Source: Chthoniobacterales bacterium (GTDB lineage Bacteria > Verrucomicrobiota > Verrucomicrobiia > Chthoniobacterales > UBA10450). Taken from it: a DNA stretch of 64,000 nucleotides. The translations under genes were made by a program, and so were the position numbers. Below the pieces are notes generated by a model, which did no database searches, had not been told where the DNA came from, and saw only the letters and a list, made by a program, of their open reading frames with translations. Every line of letters starts with the position of its first letter. Positions within the stretch are counted from its first letter, which is position 1. Below are positions 35,656 through 59,683 of the stretch, piece after piece. The stretch covers positions 248,001-312,000 of the forward strand of contig DATENU010000009.1 in the NCBI GenBank assembly GCA_035274845.1, given 5' to 3'.

Positions 35656-35694
35656 GCGTCTTGCCCTCTTGGGTGGTCCAGGTTGCCGGGCTCT

Positions 35695-36840
35695 TCACGG
35701 GGCGTCTGCCAGGACGCTTTCCACCGCCGCGGCGATCTCCTCGGACGCGCCGATGCCCAAGACCTTTTTCCAGAGCCCGGTGGTTTCATTTCCTACAATG
35801 AACACATTGGAATGGCCCTCCCTCATTTCAGTCGCGAACCCGAGCTTTTGAAGCGCCAAATCCACCGACTGCTTGTCTCCGGTTAAAAAATCCCATCCTT
35901 CTTTTGCCTCCAAACCCCTGGCGTATTTGCGGAGGACGGCAGGGGTGTCCGTTTCCGGATCGACCGAGATGGAGATAAAATGCGGTTTTGGGCCGGGCCG
36001 CTCGGCGAACCTTTCCTGCAGGCTGTGAAACATCGGCATGGTGACTTTACACACGCTCGTGCAACTGGAAAAAAAGGAACCAATCACCACGACTTTCCCC
36101 CGGAGAAGATCACTGTATAACCGCAGTCTCTTTCCATCCTGATTGGTGAGCTCGACATCGGTGAAATAACGCTGCGCCGGCGTATTCCCGATGGGGAGAG
36201 TAGTCGAGCCAGAGGTAGAGACGGAACGGGGCGCAGCCCCGCCAGCTTTATTTACCTCTTCTCGCAAAAGCGCGGCGATCCTGACGGGAGGCACCTCCAG
36301 AGCATTCACGCGCTGCCAGCTTCCCGTGCGGTCGTTCACAATCAGCAGGAACGGGGAATGACTCTGAATATTCGGAACGTAGACCTCGAGTTTCTTAAGT
36401 AATTGGGTTACCGAATCCTTGCCGCCGGTGAGCAAGGTCCAGCCCGGGGCGGCGTCAAAGCGCTCTCCCCATGCCCGCAATTTCTCCGGCGTATCCGTGG
36501 TCGGGTCGATACTGATCGAGATGAGACCCGCATCGCGGCCCAAGACAGGGCCAAGCTCTTTTTGCAATTGGCCCAGGTGGATTCCAATCGTGTTGCAGAT
36601 GGTTGGGCAGGTCGTGAAGATGAAGCTGATGGCCACGACCCGGCCCTTCACCAGGTCCGAATAAAGGTGCAGCTTTTCGCCGTTTTGGTTGACCAGCTCG
36701 GTGTCCGGCACTTCTGTGCGGCGAGGAGCCTGCGTTTCCGGTTCCGGCGGCGCCGCCGGTAAAGGAAGGGCCAGAGAGACAAGGAAGACACCGGCGAGCA
36801 GCCGGTGCCGGACCGAAAATGTGAAAGCGTGTCGATGCAT
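35695..36840 (-). CDS. Tandem SCO1/SenC copper-chaperone protein
   Basis: The start at ATG 36840 lies 13 bases after the upstream stop and gives a signal peptide ending LPLPAAPP. Two thioredoxin-fold SCO1 domains follow in one chain. The first (about 45-200) has TTCPTIC and the metal-binding His in QSHSPFLLIV. The second (about 220-380) has SSCTSVC and His in REGHSNVFIV. Each half also contains the ISISIDPTTDTP / ISISVDPETDTP strand. SCO proteins insert copper into the CuA site of oxidases. Here the likely client is the giant copper protein encoded two genes upstream. The fused pair may replace two separate SCO proteins. Confidence 0.85.
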   Translation of the reverse strand: MHRHAFTFSVRHRLLAGVFLVSLALPLPAAPPEPETQAPRRTEVPDTELVNQNGEKLHLYSDLVKGRVVAISFIFTTCPTICNTIGIHLGQLQKELGPVLGRDAGLISISIDPTTDTPEKLRAWGERFDAAPGWTLLTGGKDSVTQLLKKLEVYVPNIQSHSPFLLIVNDRTGSWQRVNALEVPPVRIAALLREEVNKAGGAAPRSVSTSGSTTLPIGNTPAQRYFTDVELTNQDGKRLRLYSDLLRGKVVVIGSFFSSCTSVCKVTMPMFHSLQERFAERPGPKPHFISISVDPETDTPAVLRKYARGLEAKEGWDFLTGDKQSVDLALQKLGFATEMREGHSNVFIVGNETTGLWKKVLGIGASEEIAAAVESVLADAP

Positions 36841-36853
36841 GAGCGGTTGCACG

Positions 36854-38833: not shown

Positions 38834-38835
38834 GC

Positions 38836-45456: not shown

Positions 45457-45712
45457 GAACGGGGTTTTTTGAGGGTTCAGTGGATCTTCTAAATCTGGGA
45501 TTTAACCGCCTGTGAGAACTCTTCCGATCTGAAGAACCGCCGAGTTTTTCAGCCGAAACAGTTTCTTTTGTCGCTGATGATGAGGCCGGCGCTTCGCGGC
45601 GGGCAAACACCAAGTGTTATCTGGGAGCGACATCTCCCGGATTTTTTTTGGCGCCGAACTCACCCGCGGGATTGCTACGTTCGACTGTCGAGCCCACCAT
45701 GATGTAACCGTG
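45457..45712. promoter_or_regulatory. Divergent promoter region between oxidase operon and acyltransferase
   Basis: About 256 bases lie between the start of the giant copper oxidase (minus) and ATG 45713 of the acyltransferase (plus). Promoters for both must be here. I could not identify unambiguous -35/-10 boxes or a CueR/CopY-type inverted repeat. Confidence 0.35.
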
Positions 45713-46732
45713 ATGAGTCATCCCCCGAGCGTGAAATCTCCACCACTTCGTTTCGAAACGCTGACTGATCTCGGCGCGGCTCAGCAAATCGTTCCCGCCT
45801 GGAACGAACTGCTCGATCGCTCCCGCTGTAACCCCGCCTTTAGCGCGCCGATTTGGTTTCTGGGGGCGTGCCAGGTGCAGCCTGAATTTCTGCCCTGGCT
45901 CGTTCTGGCCTGGCGCGGCGACAGTCTGGCGGGTGTTTTGCCCCTCGCCGTCAAGCTAGACACCCGGGAAGCGATTTTCCCGAATGCGATGAGCAATTAT
46001 AACGACGTCATCGTGGCGGACGGCGACCTGACGACCGCCGCCGGGTTGCTGGAACACGCTCTGTCGGAGCGTGAGGAATTTCGCCGGCTCGAACTGAAAT
46101 ACGTCCGGCAGGATTCGAATTTAATCGCGGCCCTTCGGATCCTGGAGGGCCGGTCCGAATTGACAGCGTGCGGCCTTCCCGGTCCGGAATATTCCTACAT
46201 CTCGCTCCCCGCGACCCGCGCTGAGTACGTGGCCGCCCGGAGCCGTGCCTTCCGCAAGGGGACGGGCCGGGCAATGCGAAAGGCGGCCGCGAACGGTCTG
46301 GGAATGCAGGAGCTGACGCCCGCCGGTTTTCCGCCGGAACGTTTACCCGGGCTCTTTCTCGACCTCAATATCAGCCGGTTCGGCGAGAAAAGTACATTCC
46401 GTCGTGTGGCGCAAAACGCTTCGTTTTGCAGGTTGGCCTTGCCGGTCCTCTTCGCCGAGCGCCGGCTCCACGTGTTCGCGATTTGGAAGGACGAACGCAT
46501 TCTTGCCCTCGACCTGTGCTTTCGCGGCGAACGCAGCCTGTGCACCTGGAACGGCGGATATCCGCCGGAGGCGGAATGCTGGTCGCCGGGCCGGCTCCTT
46601 TTGCTGGCGGGAATTGAGCGCGCCTGCGAGCTCGGTTTGGAAGAATATGACTTGCTCCGCGGAAACCAGGAATGGAAAGGCAGATGGGCGAACCGGGCGC
46701 GCCGGTTGAGCACGATCGTGCGGGAGGGATAA
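45713..46732 (+). CDS. GNAT/FemAB-like N-acyltransferase (BioF2/CelD-like)
   Basis: I start at ATG 45713, giving 339 residues; the frame is open upstream to a GTG at 45614. The pattern is that of the acetyltransferase-6 family: N-terminal NPAFSAPIWFLGAC, middle RKGTGRAMRKAAANGLG (acyl-CoA phosphate contact) and C-terminal DLCFRGERSLCTWNGGY followed by YDLLRGNQEWKGRW. Homologues transfer acyl groups to sugars in exopolysaccharide synthesis or to peptides. It converges with two glycosyltransferase genes on the other strand, which fits a glycan-decoration role. Confidence 0.75.
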   Translation: MSHPPSVKSPPLRFETLTDLGAAQQIVPAWNELLDRSRCNPAFSAPIWFLGACQVQPEFLPWLVLAWRGDSLAGVLPLAVKLDTREAIFPNAMSNYNDVIVADGDLTTAAGLLEHALSEREEFRRLELKYVRQDSNLIAALRILEGRSELTACGLPGPEYSYISLPATRAEYVAARSRAFRKGTGRAMRKAAANGLGMQELTPAGFPPERLPGLFLDLNISRFGEKSTFRRVAQNASFCRLALPVLFAERRLHVFAIWKDERILALDLCFRGERSLCTWNGGYPPEAECWSPGRLLLLAGIERACELGLEEYDLLRGNQEWKGRWANRARRLSTIVREG

Positions 46733-46781: not shown

Positions 46782-47744
46782 TTATCGAGGAGACTTTGCG
46801 GGAGCGTTCCGGTTACCGCGGGCGACAACAGCTGCCAGGTCCAGAACATCGCCGCACCACGAGTCCAGCCGCGGCGTCGCTGCAAGCGCGGCGATGTCGT
46901 GCCGGCGGTCGAACATTTCTCTTCGCTCGCGATACAGGCTGGCGACGTTTGCCGCCAGTTCGGCGGGGCATTCACCCAAACGTATGAATTCAGGGGCCCG
47001 TGCCGCAAAGTGGGGAGCCCAGCCAACGGGTGTAGTCACGACCGGCACACCCGTCGCCAAGGCCTCGAAAAGCGGCAGGGGTCCTGCCTCGGTGATGCTG
47101 GTGATAAGCAGGCAATCCATTTTCGCATACAGCTGAGGATAGGTTTCGATCGGGTAATCCGCGCGCTCGTAAAGGGCACACTCAATCCCCAAACCCGCCA
47201 TCTCCGCCGCCAGACTGTCGAGATTTTTTCCGACAAGCACGACCCGAAAAAAAAGCCCCTCGGCGACCAGACGGTCAGCGATTTCCGGAACCCACTCGGG
47301 ACGTTTGCGCCAATGATCGCGCCCGACCCAACCCAGATGAAACCTTTCCTGGAGAACGGTGCGCGGTTGAAAGATTTCGAGCGCGCCCAGGGGACGTTCG
47401 AGCACGGGCACTCCTTCAAGAGTAATTCCCGCGTCCCGGAGAATGCGGCGTTGCTCCGGATGGCAGAGGGCCAGAGCCCCCGCGGACCGCACCGCGGCGC
47501 GATCGCCGCCGGGAAGGTAGTGCCCATCCTGCTCAAAGAGATCGTGGAGGCAGACGACGCTGCGGGAGAGATCGGGTGAGCGAACCGCTTCGCGCGTGCG
47601 AATGAAGACCCAGGCGTCAGCTCCACGCTCGGGCCGGTCCGACACTGTGACGCGGAGCCCGGGAACGCGCGTGGCGGCAAAGCGCTTTTTGATGTCGCCG
47701 AAAAGCCATTCTTCTCCCTCGGCGCAGACGTTTACTGAGATCAT
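46782..47744 (-). CDS. GT-B glycosyltransferase (family 4 type)
   Basis: A 320-residue protein with the C-terminal half of a GT-B fold. LGWVGRDHWRKRPEWVPEIA opens the nucleotide-sugar domain. ITEAGPLPLFEALATGVPVVTTPVG (about 220-245) is the E-x7-E glycosyltransferase-1 signature, where the first Glu and the second Glu flank the donor sugar. It follows the Kdo/capsule-like gene by five bases. It may add a sugar to the product of the operon upstream. Confidence 0.75.
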   Translation of the reverse strand: MISVNVCAEGEEWLFGDIKKRFAATRVPGLRVTVSDRPERGADAWVFIRTREAVRSPDLSRSVVCLHDLFEQDGHYLPGGDRAAVRSAGALALCHPEQRRILRDAGITLEGVPVLERPLGALEIFQPRTVLQERFHLGWVGRDHWRKRPEWVPEIADRLVAEGLFFRVVLVGKNLDSLAAEMAGLGIECALYERADYPIETYPQLYAKMDCLLITSITEAGPLPLFEALATGVPVVTTPVGWAPHFAARAPEFIRLGECPAELAANVASLYRERREMFDRRHDIAALAATPRLDSWCGDVLDLAAVVARGNRNAPAKSPR

Positions 47745-47749
47745 GGCGC

Positions 47750-48742
47750 TCAGCGCACTCGATGAGCGGGCCGACGGACGCCGCGATCCACTCCCACTTT
47801 CTTCCTCAGATATTCGAGTAGTCGCGCCCTTGAATTCCCCATGGCCGGCCCGGTGAGGGGGTAGGCATGCCGGTGGTAATAAAAGTAGATAAACTTGTCA
47901 GCCTCTTGCCGCTGCGCTGGCGAGTATTCACGCACATAGGCGAGAGCTGCGTCCAACCCGCCGGGACTGGCGCGAAAGGTCGCCCAGCGATAGTCGCACC
48001 GGCCCAGGGTTACCACCGGCTTTCCGTGGATCAGGGCCTCGAAGCCCACGCCGGAAGTCAGAACGACTACGCCGACAGCCCCGGCGATCAGCGCGTGAAT
48101 ATTCTCGTCGACGATCGAGACATAGCGCCCTTCCGCAGCCCGGGCCCGAACGGCCTCCGCGACGTCAGGCGCCTCTCGTCCCGGATGCAGCTTGAACACC
48201 ACCCGAATGCGCGCGCTATCCGCCCAGTCCGAGAGAAGATTCACGTACTCAACGACGCTTAAGGGTGAGTGAAGCGTCACCGCGTCGTCGGTCGGCAGTT
48301 GTAAGGGCGCGAGCAGATACGGACCGAGCGAGGAATCGATGGTGCGCACGGGGGGCTGCCGATGTTTTGAGCTGCCCGATGCCAGAAATTCCCGGCATAA
48401 CTGAGCGCAGAACCGCCGCGCAGCCGCGGGATCGATCTCGCTGAGATCAGGCGGCGCCTGGAGACCGGAGTGCTCCGGTCCCCACCCGAGATGATCGATG
48501 GTAAAGAGGTTCTGGGCGTGCATCTCTTTGTAAAAAAGATCGCCGTCCGGCAGTTGCTCACGGGATTTGTGCGGGTAGATGCGAAAATCGAAGCCCGCCG
48601 GTCCTGGGGAGGGTTCCCGGGGAAATTCCAGCTCAGTCACCTGATGTCCCAATTGGACCAGCGAAGCCTTCAGGATGGTTTCGAATCGTCGCCAGCGCTC
48701 GACCGGCGGACAGGAAAATAATTGTCGAAGCAATACCTTCAT
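47750..48742 (-). CDS. Capsule polysaccharide-type glycosyltransferase
   Basis: A 330-residue cytoplasmic protein. RIRVVFKLHPGREAPD (about 190-206) and VVVLTSGVGFEALIHGKPVVTLG (about 235-258) are the paired motifs of the capsule-synthesis family that includes KpsC/KpsS Kdo-transferases and CDP-glycerol transferases: a Lys-x-His-Pro and a Ser-x-x-GFEAL segment that bind the activated donor. The N-terminal domain is not distinctive. It lies 46 bases after the end of the first luciferase-like gene, same strand, and may belong to the same transcript. Confidence 0.65.
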   Translation of the reverse strand: MKVLLRQLFSCPPVERWRRFETILKASLVQLGHQVTELEFPREPSPGPAGFDFRIYPHKSREQLPDGDLFYKEMHAQNLFTIDHLGWGPEHSGLQAPPDLSEIDPAAARRFCAQLCREFLASGSSKHRQPPVRTIDSSLGPYLLAPLQLPTDDAVTLHSPLSVVEYVNLLSDWADSARIRVVFKLHPGREAPDVAEAVRARAAEGRYVSIVDENIHALIAGAVGVVVLTSGVGFEALIHGKPVVTLGRCDYRWATFRASPGGLDAALAYVREYSPAQRQEADKFIYFYYHRHAYPLTGPAMGNSRARLLEYLRKKVGVDRGVRRPAHRVR

Positions 48743-48788: not shown

Positions 48789-49937
48789 CTACGCGGTCTC
48801 CACGCGGTTACCTTTGTTCATCTTACTCGAGGCCGGGACCAGCTCCGAACGTGCAGGGTCCATCATTGGGGTCGCCTGTTCCCGCCGGCGCACGAGCGGG
48901 ATAACGTCGCGGCAAAAAATCCGCATTTCCTCCAGCTTCGGCCATCCATGCAAAATAAATTGAGAGATCCCGGCTTCCTTGAAGTCATGGATCTCATCCG
49001 CGACCTCGTCAGGTGTTCCGACCATCACGATACCAGTGGCGCCGAGCGTCCGAACGGCCCCGGCCCAAAGTCTTGGCGTTAACCACTCCGTCTCGCCGAG
49101 ATCAAACGTCCGGCGCATCGAGCTGGCATCGGACGCTTTGACAAAAACAGCCTCGCTTCGCCGGCGGCGTTCGATGGCCGGTCCTTCGACGAGACTTCGG
49201 GCCGCATCGAGGGCTTCCTGGCGCGTCGGCCGGACAATGCAGGAGAGCCGCAGGCCTATCTCGATTCCGCTCTGGCGCACGGCCGCCGCATCCTCCGCCA
49301 CGTTTTCCGGAGTGTCGGCAAAACGAAGCCAGCAATCGGCGAACCCGCAAGCCGCCTCGCGAGCACTCGCAGATCCGCCGCCGACGTAGATTTCCGGCGC
49401 GCGTCGATCGGTCGCCACGAATGGCGTTTTCAAGTGGCCGTCCGCGATACGATAATGCCGGCCGAGGAAATTCACCGCCTCATCTCCGGACCAAAAGCGG
49501 GCGCAGATGGTTAGATATTCCTTCATGCGCTCGTAGCGCGCGTCGTGGGCCAGATTATCGCCGTAGGTGAGCTGCTCGGCGGGAGAATGTCCGGCCACCA
49601 TATTAAGGGTGATCCGACCTGGAGCGAGGGTGGAGAATGTGTTGACCTGCTGCGCGAAAAGCGTTGGAGACATGAGCCCGGGCCGGTGGGCGACCATAAA
49701 CTTGAGACGCTCAGTCGAGGCCGCCAGAGCCATCGCCAGCACCATCGGCTCGGGCTTGCGGCTACTAACATCCACCAGGACGGAGTCGATTCCGTTTTGC
49801 TCTGCCTCGCGGCAAAAGGCGATTTGCGCGGCTATTTCAGGCAGGGCGGTGGCGGCATTGAAACGCTCCGGGGCGATCGCGCCCTCCAGATCGCCGCCTT
49901 GGAGCAGCCGCCAATGGAATCGCAGCGGCTTCGTCAT
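48789..49937 (-). CDS. Luciferase-like (LLM class) FMN-dependent monooxygenase, copy 1
   Basis: Start ATG 49937 overlaps the upstream methyltransferase stop as ATGA; a longer frame to 50096 has no support. The TIM barrel of the alkanesulfonate-monooxygenase (SsuD-like) group is clear: FHWRLLQGGD, EQNGIDSVLVDVSSR, KFMVAHRPGLMSP, RITLNMVAGHSPAEQLTYGD (FMN phosphate region) and PEIYVGGGSASA. These enzymes use FMNH2 from a separate reductase to oxidise C-S, C-N or C-C bonds. The operon provides a reductase at 57188-57781. The last 30 residues are a polar tail not seen in SsuD. Confidence 0.85.
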   Translation of the reverse strand: MTKPLRFHWRLLQGGDLEGAIAPERFNAATALPEIAAQIAFCREAEQNGIDSVLVDVSSRKPEPMVLAMALAASTERLKFMVAHRPGLMSPTLFAQQVNTFSTLAPGRITLNMVAGHSPAEQLTYGDNLAHDARYERMKEYLTICARFWSGDEAVNFLGRHYRIADGHLKTPFVATDRRAPEIYVGGGSASAREAACGFADCWLRFADTPENVAEDAAAVRQSGIEIGLRLSCIVRPTRQEALDAARSLVEGPAIERRRRSEAVFVKASDASSMRRTFDLGETEWLTPRLWAGAVRTLGATGIVMVGTPDEVADEIHDFKEAGISQFILHGWPKLEEMRIFCRDVIPLVRRREQATPMMDPARSELVPASSKMNKGNRVETA

Positions 49938-50596
49938 ATTGCCACGTCCAATTGCGCGCCTTCCTCCTCGCCCAGACAGATAAAGGCGTGCGCTTCGCTG
50001 GTTTGGACAAACTCCGTAAAGCGCAAGCCGGGATTGGCCCGGCGAAATTCTCCCCAGGCCCGGCGTTCCCCCCGGTCCGGGTCCCCATAAAAACAAAACC
50101 AGTCGTCGAAGACGACGACCGTTCCCGGGCGGAGGAACGGTTTGGCAAACGCCAGCACCGGCACGGTCGAGCTATACAGATCGCAATCGACAAAAATCAC
50201 AGCGGCTTTTCGCGGAAGCAACGATTCGGCCAGCGCCGGGGTAAGGCTTTCGTCGTAAAAGCCCCTTATCGTCCGGAGACGCTCCCGGGGCATCCCCACT
50301 TCGCTGGTGATGGCGAGGAACTCTTCTTCGCTCGTTGCCAGCGCGCCAGCTGTCCAGGCCGGCGACCGGTCGATTTCCGGAATTTCCGGCAGCCCGGCAA
50401 AAGAGTCGAAGCCGACATAAGTCCAATTGAAAAGCGCGCCAGTGAATTCCCAGGCCAGACGCATGGTTCGCCCCTTGTGGCAGCCGAATTCGAAATAATA
50501 ACCGTCAGTTACAGAATTGAGGTAGCAGAAGCGAGCGATCGAAAGGAACAGATACTCACGCTGCCAATCGCGAAACATTTCGTGGCTGAGCTTCAT
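49934..50596 (-). CDS. TylF-type SAM-dependent O-methyltransferase
   Basis: ATG 50596 forms an ATGA overlap with the upstream LLM gene; a start at 50629 would overlap it by 37 bases. The 220-residue product carries GYYFEFGCHKGRTMRLAWEF (SAM site), YVGFDSFAGLPE, then AAVIFVDCDLYSSTVPVLAF and GTVVVFDDWFCFYGDP, the metal-binding Asp cluster of TylF/macrocin O-methyltransferases. Members methylate sugar hydroxyls on natural products. In this operon it suggests a sugar-like or polyol product. Confidence 0.8.
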   Translation of the reverse strand: MKLSHEMFRDWQREYLFLSIARFCYLNSVTDGYYFEFGCHKGRTMRLAWEFTGALFNWTYVGFDSFAGLPEIPEIDRSPAWTAGALATSEEEFLAITSEVGMPRERLRTIRGFYDESLTPALAESLLPRKAAVIFVDCDLYSSTVPVLAFAKPFLRPGTVVVFDDWFCFYGDPDRGERRAWGEFRRANPGLRFTEFVQTSEAHAFICLGEEEGAQLDVAI

Positions 50597-51735
50597 GCGG
50601 AAGGCGAGCTCGCTGCGGCTGGTTCGCATCTCTCCGATGCGCGAACCCGGGGGAGAATTTCTTGTCCGAAGAAAACCATTTCCTCCAAATCAGGCCAGCC
50701 AGTGAAGAGGAACTGGGTGACTCCGATCGCCTTGTATGCCAAAAGCGAAGCGGCGATTTCTTCCGCCGATCCGACCAAGGCAATCGCCGGAGCACCGAGG
50801 ACTTTTACAGCTCCGGTCCAGAGAGTAGACGTGGCCCACTCGGTGGAACATTCACGCGCGAGGGCGTAGGTGGTTTGAAAAGCAGCCGCGTCCGTTTGGC
50901 GCTCGAACTTGCGCTGGGTGTGGCAAGCCGTTTCGTCGAACCGGTCGACGAGATCGTGGGCCGCGCGGATCGCCTCGCTTCGGGTCGGCCGCGCGACGAG
51001 CGAGACGAGGAGACCTACTTCCGTCCCGGTTCGCACGACCGGTGCGATGGCAGGCGCCAGGGTCTCCGGCGGCTCGGCAAAGCGCCATAGGCAATCGGCG
51101 TGGCGGATCGCCAGGGCCGCGCTCTGCTCCGAGTTGCCGCCTAGATAAATCTCCGGCCGGCGCTCTCCATTAAGGCTGAAAGGCGTCGGGAGCCGCCCCC
51201 CCTTCACTTGGTAATAGCGGCCGGTAGAGTTGACCTCCGCACTGTTCGAATCCCAAAATGCCCGGCAGACGGTGAGAAATTCATCCAGCCGGTCATAACG
51301 TTCTTCGCGCGGCAGCCAGTCGCCGTAATATTGAAGTTCACGCGGCGTATGGCCCCCGACGATGTTGATATGCACGCGGCCATCAACAAGGAGCGAGAGG
51401 GTGTTGATTTGTTGAACGAAGGCCGCGGGCGAGATCAATCCCGGCCGGCAGGCAATCATGAACTTCACGCGCTCGGTTTTTTGGCCGAGGCAAATTGAGA
51501 GCAGGATCGGATCGGGCCGCGCGAAACCGATTGCCATCAGGAGCGAATCGATCCCGTTTTCATCCGCGCACTGGCAGAGCTCCAACTGCGCCTCGAACGG
51601 CAATTGGCCCGACTGCGCTTTCGCGGACGTTGCTCGCCGAAAAGGTGTGCCCGCCTGTGAGAGGCTCCAGTGGAACCGAAGCGGTTTTGGTGAGACCGCC
51701 GATGCCGCGTCCGGTGGCGGTGTGAGTGCAATCAT
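50593..51735 (-). CDS. Luciferase-like (LLM class) FMN-dependent monooxygenase, copy 2
   Basis: A 380-residue paralogue of copy 1 with the same order of segments: RFHWSLSQAG, DENGIDSLLMAIG, KFMIACRPGLISP, RVHINIVGGHTPRELQYYGD and PEIYLGGNSEQSA. The two proteins also agree near the C-terminus (LFTGWPDLEEM here, ILHGWPKLEEM there). Two paralogues fed by one reductase suggest successive or branch oxidations. The start overlaps the tandem-domain gene stop as ATGA (51732-51735). Confidence 0.85.
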   Translation of the reverse strand: MIALTPPPDAASAVSPKPLRFHWSLSQAGTPFRRATSAKAQSGQLPFEAQLELCQCADENGIDSLLMAIGFARPDPILLSICLGQKTERVKFMIACRPGLISPAAFVQQINTLSLLVDGRVHINIVGGHTPRELQYYGDWLPREERYDRLDEFLTVCRAFWDSNSAEVNSTGRYYQVKGGRLPTPFSLNGERRPEIYLGGNSEQSAALAIRHADCLWRFAEPPETLAPAIAPVVRTGTEVGLLVSLVARPTRSEAIRAAHDLVDRFDETACHTQRKFERQTDAAAFQTTYALARECSTEWATSTLWTGAVKVLGAPAIALVGSAEEIAASLLAYKAIGVTQFLFTGWPDLEEMVFFGQEILPRVRASERCEPAAASSPSA

Positions 51736-52592
51736 CGTCGCACCGCCTCCTGCCGGTAGAAGAACTCACGCTTGAAGTAGTTCGAGCGCGAACTCGCGTC
51801 TTTAAATCTGTGATAAGACGCAATAATGATCAGTCCCTTGTTCTCGTTTCCCGCGAGGGTAATCTCAGCGAAGTCGAAGACATAACGCGCGATAAAGGCC
51901 AGGCCTCGTGGAGAGGATACATCGTAAGCGTGCGGGGTTACTTCCGCCTCCCCCCAATCTCCGGGATAGCCCGATCCGGAAGCACGCACGTAAAAGCGCT
52001 CGCCGCGTTTCGTGAAGTCGAAGTGCGTGATAGCCAAGGTTTCGGGATTCGTGTTTGTCCAATGCCCGACGTAGTGGGCCAGGTCTACCGCGCCCACCGA
52101 GGTCCCGCTCTGGATCGGCAAATCCGCACGCGTCGCGCATGCCGCCTCCGCCGGAAGAGGCGCGGGATTGTGGGCCACTTCTTTGCTGAAAAACTCTCGC
52201 GTGAAGTACGGTGGCCGCCCGCTTTCGTCGGCAAACCGATTGTAACTCTGAATCACCAGGACTCCATATTTCACATTCGTGGCTAGCTGCGTCTGCATGA
52301 ATCCGAAGTCGTAATGGGCAAGAAATCCAGTGACCAGGGACGATCCGATCCGATCCACATAAGGAGTCGCGGGCACCTCTCCCCAGTCGATCGGCGCGGT
52401 GCCATTGGCGCCAAAAGCGCGCATCGCGACCACCCCATCCCGGACCGAGAGAATGACCTTGCTGATTTCGCTCGTTCCTGGGTCGGTATTGAACCAGGTC
52501 CCTGCGAGCTGCGCAGGTTCGGGTTTTACTGCCGCACTTTCGGCGTTGCATCGGTCGTTACCGCGAGTGTGCTTCATTTCCGGCTCAGGCAT
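51732..52592 (-). CDS. Protein with two tandem copies of an unknown beta-barrel-like domain
   Basis: The start is ATG 52592 (or 52577), just past the PhyH stop; a longer frame to 52745 runs into PhyH. The 286 residues contain the same domain twice. Copy one (about 28-137) runs from LAGTWFNTDP through DWGEVPATPY and VIQSYNRFADESGRPPYFTREFF. Copy two (about 173-281) runs from YVGHWTNTNP through DWGEAEVTPHAY and IIASYHRFKDASSRSNYFKREFF. The strand-rich pattern with G-x-W near the start resembles lipocalin-type barrels, which bind small hydrophobic ligands, but no family is certain. No signal peptide is seen. Confidence 0.75.
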   Translation of the reverse strand: MPEPEMKHTRGNDRCNAESAAVKPEPAQLAGTWFNTDPGTSEISKVILSVRDGVVAMRAFGANGTAPIDWGEVPATPYVDRIGSSLVTGFLAHYDFGFMQTQLATNVKYGVLVIQSYNRFADESGRPPYFTREFFSKEVAHNPAPLPAEAACATRADLPIQSGTSVGAVDLAHYVGHWTNTNPETLAITHFDFTKRGERFYVRASGSGYPGDWGEAEVTPHAYDVSSPRGLAFIARYVFDFAEITLAGNENKGLIIIASYHRFKDASSRSNYFKREFFYRQEAVRR

Positions 52593-52611
52593 ACACAGGC
52601 TCCGAAACGGC

Positions 52612-53466
52612 CTAGGACGGTGCCTGGCGCAGGCGGGCTTCGGTGGTTCGGCGGACCAACTCAGCTTGCGCGGCAATTGCCTCGCGAAAGCTATAGGCAG
52701 GCGGTGACGCGAGGCTCTGGAAATAGCCTTCCTCGTTCCGGCCACGAGCCAGCACGCTTGGTACCTTTTCGACGCACTGCCGCACTGAGGGCGCTACATA
52801 GCGAATGGCGAAACCCAACCTGGGGACGGACGAAATATTGGCCTTCGATCCATGGATCAGGTTGACGTGATGCAGCGACATCTCTCCCGGTTGCAGAACG
52901 ACATCCGTGGCGTCGCGCTCATTCACTTCACACCTCACTTCGAGTCCGCTGGGCAGAAGATTGTTTTCCGACTTGGCCGAACCGTCATGTGGCACCCGGT
53001 CGTGGTGAGAACCTCGCACGACACGCATGCAGCCATTGGTTTCATTGCTATCCGAAAGAGCAACCCACGCCGAAACGAGTAACGGTTCGCTTAGATTCAG
53101 ATAGAACCCATCCTGATGCCACGAGACGAAGGCGCCATCCCCGGGGTATTTGCAGAAGAGCGTCGCATGATGAACCAGAATATGGGGGCCGATGATGGCT
53201 TGGACGGCGTCAAGAATGCGCGGGTGGGTCGCCAGATCGTAAGCCCACCGGTGAAAGAGATGGGGATTGCGCGATTGCGCGGCATTCGGGCGAGAGCCGA
53301 GTTGCTCGCAAAACCTTTCGTACTCACTGCGAAAGCGCGCCGTTTCGTCTCGCGACAAAACCGGGATGGGAAAAAGAATCCCCTCGCGCCGGTAGGTGGC
53401 AACTTCCGCTTCGCTCAGAAATCCCATACTTGAGGTATCGGAAGAAGCAGTGGCCTGGGTCTTCAT
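52612..53466 (-). CDS. PhyH-family Fe(II)/2-oxoglutarate dioxygenase
   Basis: ATG 53466 overlaps the upstream stop as ATGA. The 284-residue protein has the phytanoyl-CoA dioxygenase fold: SWHQDGFYLNL provides the first His and the Asp of the facial triad (about residue 122), and HHVNLIHGSKANIS-PRLGFAIRY provides the second His and the 2-oxoglutarate-binding Arg. NGCMRVVRGSHHDRVPHD is the typical PhyH loop. Such enzymes hydroxylate or halogenate small molecules in biosynthetic clusters. Confidence 0.85.
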   Translation of the reverse strand: MKTQATASSDTSSMGFLSEAEVATYRREGILFPIPVLSRDETARFRSEYERFCEQLGSRPNAAQSRNPHLFHRWAYDLATHPRILDAVQAIIGPHILVHHATLFCKYPGDGAFVSWHQDGFYLNLSEPLLVSAWVALSDSNETNGCMRVVRGSHHDRVPHDGSAKSENNLLPSGLEVRCEVNERDATDVVLQPGEMSLHHVNLIHGSKANISSVPRLGFAIRYVAPSVRQCVEKVPSVLARGRNEEGYFQSLASPPAYSFREAIAAQAELVRRTTEARLRQAPS

Positions 53467-54359
53467 GGGAGGCTGAGGGGACCGCGTCCATCCACACACG
53501 CGATCCAGGATCCATCGTTGATCCGCTGCGGATCGAGATGGTGCATGCCCGATTGATTCCAGGTTTCCTGCCCGGGCCCGAGGATCGGATCGAGGCCGAG
53601 TTCGCTCTCCGCGTACGAAGCGGTGGTAAGGTCCGTAACGCGAAAGGCCCGCACGGCGGTTCCGTATTGCGGGCGGCAATCCTGGCCGAATCGAATCGGC
53701 TTTCCATCGCAAATCGTGACTCGTCCTGCCGGGCGGGCCAGGGATTTGTCATTTTCAATGAGCGGGCGAATCGCGTGTTCCTGCCAGTCTCCTTCCAAGG
53801 TTGGGGCACTGAAAAGATTCAGCATGTCATGTCCGAACGGTCTGCCGGAGCAGAAGAGCCACCACCGGCCGTCGTGCTCGAACACACTCGGGTCGGCGTA
53901 AATGCCTGCGATCAAATCCTTCACATGGCGCCATTTCGTCGGAAAAGGATCACCGGCATAAAGGCGCACCGTCCCGGTTTCGATCGTTTCCGGTATCATG
54001 TAGTGCCGCCCCTCCGCCTCGAAGACATATGGATAAGAAAGATGAAACGGCTCCCGCAAGACCACGCCTTCATATCTCCACTCGATTCCATCGGAACTGC
54101 GAGCCATTGCGATCTCGCCTCGCCGAGTTTCTGCGTTCTTGACCTCCATGAACATCACCCAGCCATCGCCATCCCGGACCAAAAACGGGTCGGCGACTAA
54201 CGTTGCCCGAATATCGGTTACCTCATGTCGCGTCAGGACCGGATTGCGCACCCCCTGGGCCGGCGCCAGCGTTTGCAAAGAAGGTCCGGAATAGATGCCA
54301 ATGGACCAAGTCGAAGCCGCTCGACCGTCTCTGTATCCCGTTTGCGGAGCGCAGCTCAT
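53463..54359 (-). CDS. Five-bladed beta-propeller of the GINT1 N-terminal / GH43-like type
   Basis: The 298 residues show repeated blades with VADPFLVRDGDGWVMFMEV, GEIAMARSSDGIEWRYEGVVL, REPFHLSYPYVFEAEGRHYMIPE and YADPSVFEHDGRWWLFCSG. These are the signature of the glucosamine inositolphosphorylceramide transferase N-terminal domain, also found next to formyltransferase or glycosyltransferase genes in bacteria. The fold is related to GH43/GH68 glycosidases. It probably binds or trims a sugar. It is coupled to PhyH (ATGA) and to the acyl-CoA-dehydrogenase-like gene (54356-54359). Confidence 0.7.
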   Translation of the reverse strand: MSCAPQTGYRDGRAASTWSIGIYSGPSLQTLAPAQGVRNPVLTRHEVTDIRATLVADPFLVRDGDGWVMFMEVKNAETRRGEIAMARSSDGIEWRYEGVVLREPFHLSYPYVFEAEGRHYMIPETIETGTVRLYAGDPFPTKWRHVKDLIAGIYADPSVFEHDGRWWLFCSGRPFGHDMLNLFSAPTLEGDWQEHAIRPLIENDKSLARPAGRVTICDGKPIRFGQDCRPQYGTAVRAFRVTDLTTASYAESELGLDPILGPGQETWNQSGMHHLDPQRINDGSWIACVDGRGPLSLP

Positions 54360-55612
54360 GGGATACGAGCTTTACTTTCCGGCAGAGGAGCGCTGGTCGC
54401 GGGATGAGTGCCGTTTCCGCCGATTTGATGGAAAAAAGAGGGATCGTTCGCGTTGCCGAGCAATTGCTGCCCGACGGTTGCCAGGACTTGGTCCGCATTG
54501 TCGTGGCGCACGTAAAGCGACAAATCGCGATAGATGCGCTCGACCGGGCTCGGTTTCAGGAGGGCGCGCGCCCCACAAGCGCGGACACAGTGATCGAGCG
54601 TTTCGGTAGCCAGCTTTTCCACCAGATATCGCACCTTCGGCGCCGACACTTTCGCCTCCTCGATACGATTATCGTCCCAGAGATCGGCCACGTGTTTCAG
54701 CCAAAGGTGCGCCGTCTCGATGTTCAGCGACATGGCAGCGATGCGATGGGCGACGTAGGGATCGTCCGCTCGTTTCTGTTTGTGAATCGAAGCGAGCGCG
54801 TATTCGTAAGCCGCCTCGGCTCCGCCCAGGAAAGTGGCGGCGTAATGGGGCGAGAAGCGAGTTTGCCAGCCTTCGGAAAGATATTGCCCCGGGCGGCCGA
54901 TCACATCCGCGTCCGGGATAAATACATCATCGAATTGAACCCGGTAGCTGACCGTTGCCCGCATGCCGATCGGGTTCCACCAGGAGCTGTCGTAGCTCAC
55001 GCCCGGTCGCGCGAGATCGCACCCCAGGAGAAATAGTTGATCGGCCGACCCGGTGGCGTGGCGCGCTCCACCGGGTCCGGCGGCGTTTACGAGCAGAATC
55101 GCCCAGCGCGCGTGGCCGGCGCTGGTGGCGTACGCTTTCGTGCCGCGGAGAATGTATCCACCCGGCACGCTCTCCAGCGAAGTTCCGAAGGCGGCTTTCT
55201 GCCCGGGCACGCTGGCCTGCGGCTCGCCACTCCACGCTACCCACAACTCGCCGCGTGAAACGATTCCTTCAAACCAGCGCTCTTTCTGTTCGTCGTTCCC
55301 AAGCGCCGAAATCAGGACCTGCGAATTGACATGTCCCTCCCAGCAGCGCGCCAGCGACATATCCGCCCGCGCGAGTTCCACCGTCATTAACCACAGCGTA
55401 TGAGTGTCCAGGCCCGGCCCCAGCCCAAGTCCGCCGTAGCGCGCGGGCACGCAGGGCGCGTGCAACGAAGCACGGAACAAATCGTCGAAGTCCAGCGCGG
55501 GGAATTCTGCCGCCGCATCATAATCATTGGCGCGGCCCGCGAATAGTCCCGCGGCGAGTTCCCGGATTCGCTCCACATGGCTAGATCCCGGCGGCGGCGC
55601 ATCAGGCAGCAT
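54356..55612 (-). CDS. Acyl-CoA dehydrogenase-fold flavoprotein, possibly a monooxygenase
   Basis: A 418-residue protein of the acyl-CoA dehydrogenase superfamily: ARYGGLGLGPGLDTHTLWLM, AWSGEPQAS, GGYILRGTKAYATSAGHARWAI, WNPIGMRATVSYRVQFDDVFIPDADVIG, then the helical C-terminus (AHLWLKHVADLWDD, VRACGARALLKPSPVERIYRDLSLYVRHDN). The residue pattern is also that of group-D flavin monooxygenases (DszC, sugar N-oxygenases), which need reduced FMN. With an FMN reductase and two LLM enzymes alongside, a monooxygenase role is at least as likely as dehydrogenation. Confidence 0.8.
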   Translation of the reverse strand: MLPDAPPPGSSHVERIRELAAGLFAGRANDYDAAAEFPALDFDDLFRASLHAPCVPARYGGLGLGPGLDTHTLWLMTVELARADMSLARCWEGHVNSQVLISALGNDEQKERWFEGIVSRGELWVAWSGEPQASVPGQKAAFGTSLESVPGGYILRGTKAYATSAGHARWAILLVNAAGPGGARHATGSADQLFLLGCDLARPGVSYDSSWWNPIGMRATVSYRVQFDDVFIPDADVIGRPGQYLSEGWQTRFSPHYAATFLGGAEAAYEYALASIHKQKRADDPYVAHRIAAMSLNIETAHLWLKHVADLWDDNRIEEAKVSAPKVRYLVEKLATETLDHCVRACGARALLKPSPVERIYRDLSLYVRHDNADQVLATVGQQLLGNANDPSFFHQIGGNGTHPATSAPLPESKARIP

Positions 55613-57191
55613 GGATGCCTCCGTTTCCTAAATTAGCAAAATTGGCAATTGAGAGCCGGTCATTGGATCGGTCTTGATGGGGCAAGAGCGCGCCGTTTTT
55701 TCCGTCGGCAGCCGGAAGTCCCAGGAGGCGGCGGCCGAGACTCATCGGCATGGTTTCGCCAGTCATCAAATAGTATTGCCGTCGAGCCTGCGCGAGCAGG
55801 ATCTGCCATCCATCGACAACCTGGTGTCCCAAGGCCCGGGCTTGCTCAGTCAAAGCCGTGTCGCCCGCGTGGTTGTAAACCATGTCTACTACCGTCGCTT
55901 CCTGGTCGAGCTCTGCCAGATTTAACGGAAGCTGTTCGCCATTCCGGCCCACCGGCGTCGCATTGACGATCGCGCCGTATCCCCGCGCCGAGAATGACTC
56001 CAGCGGCACGAAGGGCAGGCCAAGGAGTTGCGCCGCCCATTGCCCGCGCTCGGCGCCGCGGTTTACCAACGTCACGTTCGCGCCGGCCTGTCTCAGGGCC
56101 GCCGCCGCAATGCGTCCGGAGCCGCCGCAACCGATAATCGCCACTTTCGTGCCGGGTCGCGGATGGCCGATGGACATATTATGGAAAATGCCCTCGGGAT
56201 CTGTTGTCGAAGCGGTCCATTCGTTTCCCCGACGCACGAGGAGATTGCTCGACACGCATTGCCGGCAGAGCGGCGCGCAATGCGTGGCCACCTCAAGGGG
56301 GGCTTCCTTGTGCGGTGAGACAACCGTGAGTCCCATGATCGGAAAGCCGATCGCTTCCATCGCGCCGCTGAGCACGAGCCGATTCCAAAACTCCTGGAAG
56401 CTGTCTGCCGGGAAACTCAAAAACAATCGCCCAAAACCACTCGCTTGATAAGCGCCGTTGTGCACCCGAGGGGAAAGCGAGCCCGAGACCGGCTGCCCGA
56501 TGATGGCAAATATCTCCCGCACCGGATAGAGATCCGGGAAACCGTAGTCCTGCACGAGATCTCGGATCGTTAGTTCCAATCCCGCCGGATCGCTTTCACC
56601 CCACACGCTGGCAAATGCGATTGGCGCACCCAGTCTCGGCGCAAGCATTCGCGTCCATCCGCCGCTGGCGCCCTCGGCATAGGCGGCCACGTCTGCCCGA
56701 TTCACGCGGTGCAGAAATTGTAAAGCCGCCAGGCCGGCCTCTACTCCGCCAGACTCCACCTCAAAACGGAAAAGGCGGGCAGGCGTTCCCGTAACGGCGC
56801 CGAGCCGCGTCTCCAAGTATTCCGGTGCGGCGGCCTTTCCACGCCATGAGACGATCCGTCTCCCGGGTGGGATCACCCTTATAACGTCGGGAACCAGGTC
56901 ATATTCCGCGTCTAAGTTTACAAAATCATAGGCTTCCGCCGCCTTCTTCAACTTCCGGTGTCGCTGGGCCAGGGAGAGACAGCCGCGCGTTTCTTCCCTG
57001 GAGATTTGCAACGTGTAGAGCAGCCGCCTTTCCTTCCACCGCTCGCGCAGTTCTGCCGGATCAAGCTCGGGAAGCAGGTCCGCGCGAACCTCGATCCAGT
57101 CGCAATGCTCCACCATCGCAGGAAAAGATCCGCTGTCCGAGATCTCCCGGGCAGATTCAAGTACCCCAACGAGTGTAGCCGAGGGTTTCAT
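55602..57191 (-). CDS. AroD-AroE fusion with a degenerate AroD domain
   Basis: Start ATG 57191 overlaps the FMN-reductase stop as ATGA. Residues 1-215 have the fold of type I 3-dehydroquinate dehydratase (WIEVRADLL, YDFVNLDAEYDL, GWTRMLAPRLGAP). Arg117 (IVSWRGK) stands where the catalytic His should be, Arg142 (RLFRFEV) replaces the Schiff-base Lys, and the PGQ loop is absent. Residues 225-529 are shikimate-dehydrogenase-like and look intact: GSLSPRVHN, SPHKEA with Lys295, TTDPEG with Asp331, Rossmann GCGGSGRIAAA, NATPVGRN and DMVYN. The usual VTIPHK motif reads VVSPHK. The gene sits in a secondary-pathway operon, so an altered substrate (aminoshikimate, quinate or a related cyclitol) is likely. 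Confidence 0.8.
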   Translation of the reverse strand: MKPSATLVGVLESAREISDSGSFPAMVEHCDWIEVRADLLPELDPAELRERWKERRLLYTLQISREETRGCLSLAQRHRKLKKAAEAYDFVNLDAEYDLVPDVIRVIPPGRRIVSWRGKAAAPEYLETRLGAVTGTPARLFRFEVESGGVEAGLAALQFLHRVNRADVAAYAEGASGGWTRMLAPRLGAPIAFASVWGESDPAGLELTIRDLVQDYGFPDLYPVREIFAIIGQPVSGSLSPRVHNGAYQASGFGRLFLSFPADSFQEFWNRLVLSGAMEAIGFPIMGLTVVSPHKEAPLEVATHCAPLCRQCVSSNLLVRRGNEWTASTTDPEGIFHNMSIGHPRPGTKVAIIGCGGSGRIAAAALRQAGANVTLVNRGAERGQWAAQLLGLPFVPLESFSARGYGAIVNATPVGRNGEQLPLNLAELDQEATVVDMVYNHAGDTALTEQARALGHQVVDGWQILLAQARRQYYLMTGETMPMSLGRRLLGLPAADGKNGALLPHQDRSNDRLSIANFANLGNGGIHAA

Positions 57192-57781
57192 CGTCTCTCC
57201 GCGTTGAGGGCAGCGCCCTGGCGGGCCTGCTTGAGCGCCAGGCCATAAAAGTAAAGTTCCTCCAGGAAACGCTCGGTCTCTAACGCCTTCGAGCCATTGC
57301 ACAGGCCGCCGCGCTCAACGAAGCGCTCCTGGACGCGTGAAACCGAAATGCTTTCTGGGATCGGCACACCACCCAGCGCAAAAACTGTCAGGCGAAGCTG
57401 CAGTAAGCATTGCAAACCGCCAAACCCCCCAGCTGAGACAGTGCAGATTCCCACTGGCTTGCGCCGCAAGATCTCCGGTTCTAGAAAATCGATGGCATTC
57501 TTCAATGCTCCCGGAATACCCCCTTTATATTCAGGCGAGACGATCAGGAGAGCGTCGGCTTCCCGTAACCGCTGGGAAAACGCCTCCAGCGCTGCCGGCG
57601 GCTCGGTCATGTCCGAGGGGCGTTGCTGCAGGAGGCCGAAGGGGTAGGTCGCAAGGTCAAGCAATTCCGGGTGAAATCGTGGGTCGGCCTCCAGTTTAGT
57701 CAGGAGATATCTGGCCACGTCTTCACTTCGGCGGCCACTGCGCACGGTTCCGAGGAGGAGGGGAAGTTTGATGACATCCAT
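57188..57781 (-). CDS. NAD(P)H-dependent FMN reductase
   Basis: A 197-residue flavodoxin-fold protein of the NADPH-dependent FMN reductase family. LLLGTVRSGRRSEDVARYLL is the FMN-phosphate loop, ADALLIVSPEYKGGIPGALKNAIDFL is the signature around residues 85-110, and VGICTVSAGGFGGLQ is the third flavin contact. It should supply reduced flavin to the two LLM monooxygenases and perhaps to the acyl-CoA-dehydrogenase-like protein. Its start codon shares one base with the regulator stop (TAATG) and its stop overlaps the AroD-AroE start. Confidence 0.85.
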   Translation of the reverse strand: MDVIKLPLLLGTVRSGRRSEDVARYLLTKLEADPRFHPELLDLATYPFGLLQQRPSDMTEPPAALEAFSQRLREADALLIVSPEYKGGIPGALKNAIDFLEPEILRRKPVGICTVSAGGFGGLQCLLQLRLTVFALGGVPIPESISVSRVQERFVERGGLCNGSKALETERFLEELYFYGLALKQARQGAALNAERR

Positions 57782-58341
57782 TACCTCGTAACCCGCTGGG
57801 TAATCCGGGCCCGTGCGGCGACAGCGGATAGATCTTGCCCGGAAAGAGGATCGGCACGGGTTGAAGCATCTACTGTGAGCAGGCGCTTCCTGGCGACCCT
57901 CGGCAGTCGCCGGAATTCCGATGGCGTCATTCTAAACTGGAGCTTGAAATCGCGACAGAAATGAGAGACCTGGCAATAATGGAGACCATAGGCAATTTCC
58001 TTGATGCTGGTGGTCCCCTGCAGCCGGACAAGAGCGGTCGTTAGGCGCTGCCGCTTTAGCCACACTCTCGGCGTGAAACCGACCTCGAGCTTGAAGCGGC
58101 GCTCCAAGTGACGAAGGCTCACGTTGCACTGCTCCGCCATTCTGAGCGGACTGTAATTCGATTCTTCTGCCGACAGCCGCCAATCCAAGTGTTGCTCACG
58201 TTTTGGTGAAACACTGGCCTGCTCCAAAAAAACCAATCCCGAAGAGATCTTCACGGATTTCCTGCTCCGGTTGCTCGTCTGTTGGAAAACGCTGTTCCGC
58301 GAGAATCTACGCTTCTGGAAATCGGGGGTGGAGTCACACAC
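57781..58341 (-). CDS. AraC-family transcription regulator, short N-terminus
   Basis: The 186-residue frame begins with GTG 58341. Residues about 60-150 are the double helix-turn-helix of AraC/XylS proteins: YSPLRMAEQCNVSLRHLERRFK, GFTPRVWLKRQRLTTALVRL, then SIKEIAYGLHYCQVSHFCRDFK and RMTPSEFR. The usual 150-200-residue sensor domain is absent: only about 55 undistinguished residues precede the DNA-binding part, so it may be truncated or respond through a partner. It is the first gene of the ten-gene operon and so is probably its regulator. Confidence 0.75.
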   Translation of the reverse strand: MCDSTPDFQKRRFSRNSVFQQTSNRSRKSVKISSGLVFLEQASVSPKREQHLDWRLSAEESNYSPLRMAEQCNVSLRHLERRFKLEVGFTPRVWLKRQRLTTALVRLQGTTSIKEIAYGLHYCQVSHFCRDFKLQFRMTPSEFRRLPRVARKRLLTVDASTRADPLSGQDLSAVAARARITQRVTR

Positions 58342-58681: not shown

Positions 58682-59683
58682 TTGAAGGCACTCGTTACAG
58701 GCGGAGCGGGATTCATCGGGTCGCATTTGGCCGAAGCATTATGCCGGCGCGGCGACAGCGTCATCATCCTCGACGACTTGAGCTCTGGCAGGCTCGACAA
58801 TCTTGTCTGGTGCGCTCCGGGCTACGCGCTGGAGTTTGTCCAAGGGGATGCCGGTGACGACGTTCTGCTCAAGCAACTAATCAAGGGCTGCGACTGCGTG
58901 TTTCACCTTGCCGCCATGCCATCCGTGCAGCAGTCGATCATTGCTCCGCTCGAAAGTCACCGGAGGAATCTCGACACGACTTTGCGCCTCTTCATCGCCG
59001 CCCGCGATGCCGCGGTGCGGCGCGTCGTTTTTGCTTCCTCATCGTCTGTCTATGGCGAAGCGCATGCAGAGGCAAAACATGAAGCGCGCTCGCCAGGCTT
59101 GCTCTCCCCCTACGCCCTCCAAAAATATGCGGCCGAACAATATGCCCAGCTGTTTCACCGCTTATATGCGTTGCCGGTAGTCACCTTGCGCTACTTTAAC
59201 GTTTTCGGACCGCGGCAGGACGACGATTCGGAATATGCCGGTGTCGTCGCGCGGTTTTGCAAAGCGGTCCTCAACTCCCGCCCAATTACGATTTATGGTG
59301 ACGGGAAGCAGTCACGTGACTTTACCTACATTGACAACGTGGTATCGGCGAACCTTCTCGCCGCGGTGGTTCCCGAAGGGAGAATTGCTGGCCGCATTTT
59401 TGACTGCGCTACCGGCACTTCCGTTTCGGTGCTCGAATTGGCGGACGCTTTGGCCAATTTGACCGGCGCGCCGTTGGCTCACGTGCCGGAGCCAAGCCGC
59501 GTCGGTGATATCCGTGATTCCCGCGCCGATATCAGCGCAATCGAAAGAGAGCTCGGCTATAGAGTGTCAGTCCGTTGGAAGGAAGGGCTTCGGCGAACAC
59601 TGGATTTCTATCGATTAAAAGGGGAGACGGTGAGGGCCGACTCGCGATCCTCGAACGGAGCTAGCCTCCAGGAAGGATTCTAG
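58682..59683 (+). CDS. NAD-dependent UDP-sugar epimerase (GalE/WbpP-like)
   Basis: The protein must start at TTG 58682 because the Rossmann motif begins at once (KALVTGGAGFIGSHL); the next ATG would remove it. Further hallmarks are HLAAMPSVQQSI, the catalytic ASSSSVYG with Tyr and Lys in SPYALQKYAAEQY, RYFNVFGPRQ and YGDGKQSRDFTYIDNVV. The 333 residues match extended short-chain epimerases that interconvert UDP-glucose/galactose or their N-acetyl forms. It would feed the glycosyltransferases nearby. Confidence 0.85.
   Translation: MKALVTGGAGFIGSHLAEALCRRGDSVIILDDLSSGRLDNLVWCAPGYALEFVQGDAGDDVLLKQLIKGCDCVFHLAAMPSVQQSIIAPLESHRRNLDTTLRLFIAARDAAVRRVVFASSSSVYGEAHAEAKHEARSPGLLSPYALQKYAAEQYAQLFHRLYALPVVTLRYFNVFGPRQDDDSEYAGVVARFCKAVLNSRPITIYGDGKQSRDFTYIDNVVSANLLAAVVPEGRIAGRIFDCATGTSVSVLELADALANLTGAPLAHVPEPSRVGDIRDSRADISAIERELGYRVSVRWKEGLRRTLDFYRLKGETVRADSRSSNGASLQEGF

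Follow-up and report, generated by a model that had tools for sequence, protein, structure and literature searches.

A ten-gene flavin oxygenase cluster on a verrucomicrobial genomic island, probably a single oxidative biosynthetic pathway

The 64,000-nucleotide stretch of DNA analysed here (the window: positions 248,001 to 312,000 of contig DATENU010000009.1, Chthoniobacterales bacterium, assembly GCA_035274845.1) belongs to a 4.5-Mb draft genome and carries at 48789-58341 a run of ten minus-strand genes which, judged from sequence, probably form one co-regulated oxidative biosynthetic pathway on a genomic island. Read 5' to 3' on that strand, they encode an AraC-type helix-turn-helix (HTH) protein, an FMN reductase, an AroD-AroE fusion (AroDE), an acyl-CoA dehydrogenase (ACAD)-fold protein, a GINT1_N propeller, a PhyH-type oxygenase, a tandem protein made of two putative barrels, a luciferase-like monooxygenase (LLM1), a TylF-type methyltransferase and a second luciferase-like monooxygenase (LLM2). 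Nine of the ten have a Pfam match (HTH_18, FMN_red, DHquinase_I with Shikimate_dh_N, Acyl-CoA_dh, GINT1_N, PhyH, TylF and, twice, Bac_luciferase), which bears out each family named in a preliminary description of the locus; the tandem protein is the only one with no match in Pfam or NCBIfam. The regulator reported there does match HTH_18, but at 186 residues it consists of the DNA-binding domain only. The nine junctions are, in order, a 1-base overlap, overlaps of 4, 11, 4 and 4 bases, a 19-base gap and three more 4-base overlaps; the 1- to 4-base overlaps ascribed to nearly all junctions are thus found at seven of them, the 11-base overlap and the 19-base gap being the exceptions. The TylF reading frame opens at 50629, with the ATGA at 50596 as the most likely start, and LLM2 most likely starts at 49937. 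Two glycosyltransferase genes on the same strand come after LLM2, with gaps of 46 and 5 bases. Among these twelve minus-strand genes Pfam detects no transporter family and, as the preliminary description had stated, no polyketide synthase, nonribosomal peptide synthetase or RiPP (ribosomally synthesised and post-translationally modified peptide) core family.

The ten-gene order is retained, together with the flanking genes, in a congeneric soil metagenome-assembled genome (20 cm), Verrucomicrobia bacterium AV80 (QHNH01000011.1; hereafter G129). Protein identity between the two is 64-85% and the ratio of nonsynonymous to synonymous substitution rates (dN/dS) is 0.09-0.30 across all ten genes, meaning that each is held by purifying selection; conserved order at such identity and with such low ratios indicates an arrangement that is more than chance. 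The G129 cluster differs in an extra opposite-strand 2-oxoglutarate-oxygenase-like gene between the ACAD and propeller genes, and in a second PhyH gene and a different glycosyltransferase after LLM2. Of the two genes at 46782-48742 to which a glycosyl transfer step had been assigned, the Capsule_synth glycosyltransferase is conserved in G129, but the GT4 glycosyltransferase (46782..47744) is not orthologous there. The genes are not scattered across relatives: in samples that include incomplete genomes, neither the ACAD nor the barrel gene turned up in any of the order's 211 other genomes, and the AroDE profile had no match in the other 387 genomes of the phylum sample (E<=1e-30). None of the marker genes tested was found in the six other congeners. 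Because ACAD, barrel and AroDE are missing from all the other order and phylum genomes searched, they appear to have been gained as a set. A scan of genome contigs with two AroDE peptide patterns returned the G129 record alone, a search too narrow to speak for absence across 85,000 species; the tandem protein had no match among viral contigs, and on plasmids AroDE met only unrelated AroE proteins at less than 60% coverage. Weak tandem-protein matches in other Verrucomicrobia (L012, L013) have unrelated gene neighbourhoods, and the ACAD of G342 occupies a different locus, where its neighbours are a glycosyltransferase-like and a PIG-L-like protein; these candidates were set aside.

It is very improbable that the run merely consists of adjacent but functionally unrelated operons gathered on an island. 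Islands do collect unrelated genes, and the first three genes (55602-58341, compared with L003:17034-19761 in G129) have a synonymous divergence (dS) of 0.47-0.61, as against 0.88-1.64 for the others, so that parts of the run may have moved separately; from this lower dS, the 5' end of the operon was possibly exchanged at a later time. Such a patchwork nevertheless fits poorly with start-stop overlaps at nearly all junctions, with an order that is the same in two genomes, and with the recurrence of relatives from across the run on a cyanobacterial plasmid.

On that plasmid, in Gloeothece, an LLM, an FMN reductase, an ACAD and four barrel genes (two A/B pairs) lie within ~10 kb, with identities to the cluster described here of 42-46% for the LLM, 48% for the FMN reductase and 59% for the ACAD. 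This four-gene core thus recurs together once outside the genus, which is suggestive of a common function. The Gloeothece locus has one LLM, a short-chain dehydrogenase/reductase, an unrelated methyltransferase and unfused barrels, whereas the verrucomicrobial cluster has two LLMs and fused barrels; its neighbour is a pst-like ABC transporter, and a gene for a 593-residue multicopper oxidase stands between the LLM and the FMN reductase. In Nostoc UHCC 0926, too, the two halves of the tandem protein are encoded by separate genes lying side by side; a two-residue insertion distinguishes the A-type barrel. Among 72,556 plasmid records, relatives of the tandem protein occur on two cyanobacterial plasmids only, and both also carry the closest ACADs (57-59% identity, the next best reaching at most 32%). 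On Nostoc plasmid pn1, which has no LLM, a distance of 240 kb separates the ACAD from the barrel genes, so this plasmid was not counted as carrying the cluster. On the Nostoc UHCC 0926 plasmid (L024:13423-15741) an octopine-dehydrogenase-family gene followed by a barrel pair A/B stands among Oxidored_nitro nitrogenase-type and PBP-type oxyanion transport genes. Our search found no literature on this gene combination; an article that reports five clusters found by antiSMASH on the plasmid of Gloeothece makes no mention of the locus in the text consulted (PMC8600333).

The LLMs themselves depart from known sulfonate monooxygenases. They score 193.7 and 170.7 bits against the NCBIfam SsuD profile (cut-off 518) and 130 and 124 bits against SfnG (cut-off 383), passing neither. 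Of the sulfonate-binding motif (W195, R225, R296 and A299 in MsuD numbering; PMC8234197), LLM2 has F, R, L and T and LLM1 has F, L, L and P, while six yardstick sequences, two of them from a verrucomicrobial sulfonate operon, all have W, R, R and A. The His, Tyr and His at SsuD positions 228, 331 and 333 are likewise replaced by Ser, Trp and Lys or Asp. Position 54, which varies (K, R; C in LLM1 of G129), was left unused. In a phylogenetic tree LLM1, LLM2, the Gloeothece LLM and a Pseudoalteromonas LLM split from SsuD-type sequences with 100% support. These residues bear on a rival explanation, namely that the cluster scavenges organosulfur compounds in the manner of the msu/sfn genes, an SfnG/MsuD-like LLM pair and an MsuC/SfnB-like ACAD releasing sulfite while the reductase feeds them. 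The enzyme set is indeed the same (PMC8234197) and the best NCBIfam profiles are SsuD, SfnB and MsuE, but the scores fall far below the cut-offs (for the ACAD, 82 of 431 bits), W195 and R296 are lost in both LLMs and R225 in LLM1, there is no transporter, and AroDE, PhyH and TylF would be without a role; the ordinary ssuD genes of the order, by comparison, keep the motif and lie in a transporter operon. We consider this explanation improbable. The paired LLMs of G063 belong to an ordinary sulfonate operon and were set aside.

Other LLM loci came to light in the same searches. The Pseudoalteromonas LLM gene adjoins its own FMN reductase gene, three ATP-grasp genes and a DAHP synthase gene and looks biosynthetic; on the P. 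xiamenensis plasmid (L023:10-14725), the same-clade LLM, FMN reductase and three ATP-grasp genes are accompanied by an aminotransferase, DUF6421, MFS/RND and DAHP synthase/chorismate mutase genes, and from its gene content this locus looks like an uncharacterised biosynthetic cluster. Two Streptomycetaceae plasmids (L053:2713-13663, L054:2669-13568) have an LLM cluster in common order with Ldh oxidoreductase, Gfo/Idh/MocA, phosphotransferase, MaoC, GNAT and PIG-L genes.

The AroD-AroE fusion aligns with the plant dehydroquinase-shikimate dehydrogenase (2gpt) over 456 residues in the same domain order. In its AroD half, arginine replaces both the catalytic His (VSWRG against VSSHN in 2gpt) and the Schiff-base Lys (LFRFEV against IVKIAT), these being the residues that we take, from general knowledge, to be catalytic in the plant enzyme. 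The AroE half keeps the catalytic Lys/Asp, the substrate-site Ser and the Rossmann motif (SLSP, PHK, TTD, GCGGSG and NR align with 2gpt, 1wxd and the genome's own aroE product), and scores 134 bits against the aroE profile, under the cut-off of 200. The two domains noted in the preliminary description are thus present, but with its catalytic dyad lost to Arg the AroD half cannot work as a normal dehydroquinase, and the fusion is probably a dehydrogenase only. Since the genome also has separate housekeeping aroE and aroD genes, the latter retaining His and Lys (SFHD, LKFA), the fusion is a specialised paralogue; it stands outside the primary shikimate pathway, unlike the plant enzyme, in which both dehydroquinase residues are intact.

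The C-terminal half of the tandem protein is predicted to be an 8-strand barrel (pLDDT, the predicted local distance difference test, 80) whose model superposes on streptavidin with Z 10.0 and a root-mean-square deviation of 3.3 over 107 residues, with no Foldseek match at E<=0.001; we predict a fused pair of avidin/calycin-like barrels which, from the fold, would bind a ligand. In PhyH, the iron triad HQD plus the distal His of HGS aligns with 6zyk and phytanoyl-CoA dioxygenase, and the TylF match is marginal (33.9 bits, cut-off 23). Both propeller relatives checked on cyanobacterial plasmids sit in polysaccharide loci with Wzy, MurJ and glycosyltransferases, which raises an alternative: the cluster could decorate a cell-surface or extracellular polysaccharide, with a sugar unit being modified by the methyltransferase, the AroE domain and the oxygenases and then placed in a glycan by the glycosyltransferases and the propeller, and would not make a free small molecule. 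The capsule-type glycosyltransferase, GT4, epimerase and FemAB-like protein of the same island fit such a role, as does a Ruegeria PhyH relative that adjoins GDP-fucose genes. Yet scanning the cluster genes brought up no Wzx/Wzy, flippase or ABC exporter, GT4 is not conserved, the Gloeothece core has no propeller and, on general grounds, a set of three flavin oxygenases would be out of the ordinary for the plain decoration of a glycan; we regard glycan decoration as rather unlikely.

The cluster lies within an island common to both genomes that spans ~31.6 kb to 59.7 kb of the window (Table 1). Its order is also kept for a 674-residue protein at 31642-33666 (69% match in G129) and a YVTN protein at 36854-38833 (77%), and past the epimerase the two genomes diverge. 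The multicopper oxidase (38836-45456) and the epimerase (58682-59683) are confined to these two of eight congeners, the absence of the epimerase from the other six being judged at E<=1e-60. Four stretches of the 2206-residue oxidase match MnxG (PDB 9bxa, 244 bits), with no Pfam match at E<=0.001, and in G129 it is present as separate open reading frames. With the YVTN propeller, the double SCO protein and the cytochrome c/periplasmic-binding fusion it could constitute a Mn oxidase system in soil Verrucomicrobia, as far as gene content can tell. The ten genes might serve metal handling, for example by making a ligand or quinone-type cofactor tied to the MnxG-like oxidase and copper chaperones. 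This would agree with the presence of MnxG-like oxidase, SCO and cytochrome genes in the same island of both genomes, with an LLM1-like gene near the same module in G183, with the multicopper oxidase between LLM and FMN reductase in Gloeothece and with the nitrogenase-type and oxyanion-transport-type neighbours of the Nostoc barrel genes. Against this, a gene on the opposite strand separates the two modules, which form distinct operons; at 593 residues the Gloeothece oxidase differs in size; stop codons interrupt the G183 gene, whose assembly is poor; and sharing a location does not mean sharing a function. A metal-related role therefore seems doubtful to us. In G183, a genome of the same family (L051:1708-11962), the stop-broken LLM1-like gene near an MnxG-like/SCO/cytochrome module could reflect gene decay or sequencing error, which the poor assembly makes indistinguishable.

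Table 1. Positions in the window of the ten cluster genes and of neighbouring island features
Feature	Position	Strand	Evidence
AraC-type HTH protein, 186 aa, GTG start, DNA-binding domain only; probable regulator	57781..58341	-	Pfam HTH_18 73 bits; 70% identity in G129
NAD(P)H-dependent FMN reductase, MsuE/SsuE-like	57188..57781	-	Pfam FMN_red 112 bits; best NCBIfam MsuE 42 bits, under cut-off; 85% in G129, 48% in Gloeothece
AroD-AroE fusion, dehydroquinase-like and shikimate-dehydrogenase-like domains	55602..57191	-	alignment to 2gpt; 83% in G129
ACAD-fold flavoprotein, SfnB/DszC-like, probable monooxygenase	54356..55612	-	NCBIfam SfnB 82 bits (cut-off 431, not passed), DszC 64 bits
GINT1_N-family beta-propeller	53463..54359	-	Pfam GINT1_N 198 bits
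PhyH-type Fe(II)/2-oxoglutarate oxygenase	52612..53466	-	Pfam PhyH 103 bits; HxD and distal His in alignments
Tandem beta-barrel protein (predicted), A and B barrels fused	51732..52592	-	halves are separate genes in cyanobacteria; C-half structure prediction
LLM1, luciferase-like monooxygenase without sulfonate-binding motif	50593..51735	-	Pfam Bac_luciferase 142.6 bits (cut-off 27.9); residues, tree
TylF-like O-methyltransferase	49934..50596	-	Pfam TylF 33.9 bits (cut-off 23); PDB relative CalS11; 74% in G129
LLM2, luciferase-like monooxygenase without full sulfonate-binding motif	48789..49937	-	Pfam Bac_luciferase 166.7 bits (cut-off 27.9); residues, tree
Capsule_synth-type glycosyltransferase	47750..48742	-	Pfam 58 bits; 74% in G129
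GT4-type glycosyltransferase	46782..47744	-	in G129 an unrelated glycosyltransferase and second PhyH in its place
NAD-dependent sugar epimerase/dehydratase, right edge of island	58682..59683	+	80% in G129
GNAT/FemAB-like acyltransferase	45614..46732	+	Pfam Acetyltransf_6; 63% in G129
Module: cytochrome c/periplasmic-binding fusion, double SCO, YVTN propeller, 2206-aa MnxG-like multicopper oxidase	34090..45456	-	order same in G129

Enzymes of the LLM and group-D ACAD families depend on a separate reductase for their FMNH2, and the FMN reductase lies beside three oxygenases of the reduced-flavin type, which fits the role of FMNH2 source given to it in the preliminary description. For a single biosynthetic pathway, which we prefer to scavenging given the lost sulfonate motif, the lack of a transporter and the presence of sugar- and ring-type enzymes, we infer the following series of reactions. 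The reductase would feed reduced FMN to LLM1, LLM2 and the ACAD-fold protein, which would oxidise one shared scaffold step by step; the AroE-type domain would convert between hydroxyl and ketone forms of a shikimate- or polyol-like ring, the dead AroD-like half perhaps being retained as a binding or structural domain; PhyH would put on a further hydroxyl and the TylF-type enzyme O-methylate one; the double barrel may bind or sequester an intermediate or the product, and the Capsule_synth glycosyltransferase and the propeller may handle a glycosidic part. The outcome would be a highly oxidised, methylated and probably ring- or sugar-like compound, and the sugar- or cyclitol-like product proposed in the preliminary description would draw on the AroE-type dehydrogenase, the TylF match (34 bits) and the neighbouring glycosyltransferases. 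Several points speak against this reading: (i), the full ten-gene order is known from two genomes of one genus only; (ii), the Gloeothece locus is without AroDE, PhyH, TylF and propeller, so the core need not yield the same product; (iii), the cyanobacterial pieces adjoin uptake genes, a pst-like ABC transporter and a FecBCDE/TonB-like set; (iv), the assignment of the ACAD-fold protein as a probable monooxygenase and not a dehydrogenase is based on profile ranking and context; and (v), the enzyme set equals that of a known scavenging system, msu/sfn.

More tentatively, and at somewhat less than even weight, the pathway could be of a new type that lacks a polyketide synthase, nonribosomal peptide synthetase or RiPP core and is built on a portable core common to cyanobacterial megaplasmids and soil Verrucomicrobia, in which a non-sulfonate LLM clade, an SfnB-like oxygenase and a dedicated FMN reductase work with calycin-like barrels, arranged in pairs, as holders of an intermediate or the product, the verrucomicrobial version being extended by an AroD-dead AroDE that acts on a shikimate- or polyol-type ring. 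If the ten genes are one pathway, they stand for a class of biosynthetic clusters likely overlooked by core-gene-based mining, here in a soil phylum with few cultured members, and one whose portable core extends to cyanobacteria. They also offer testable cases: an LLM clade beside SsuD in which the sulfonate site is lost, and an AroDE fusion that keeps the dehydrogenase half alone.

Among characterised systems, the msu/sfn dimethylsulfone clusters of pseudomonads (SfnG, MsuC, MsuD, MsuE) provide the parallel, with two LLMs, one ACAD-fold monooxygenase and one reductase sharing FMNH2 (PMC8234197). The preliminary description saw no match to a known cluster, which passes over this set: here too, two LLMs and one ACAD accompany one FMN reductase, and their nearest NCBIfam profiles are the msu/sfn-type ones. 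The cluster nevertheless differs in having no sulfonate motif, transporter or sulfur regulator, in its additional AroDE, PhyH, TylF, barrel and glycosyltransferase genes, and in profile scores that all remain under the curated cut-offs. By analogy, then, while it is not a member of the msu/sfn group by motif, cut-off or gene context, the cluster resembles it in how flavin is supplied.

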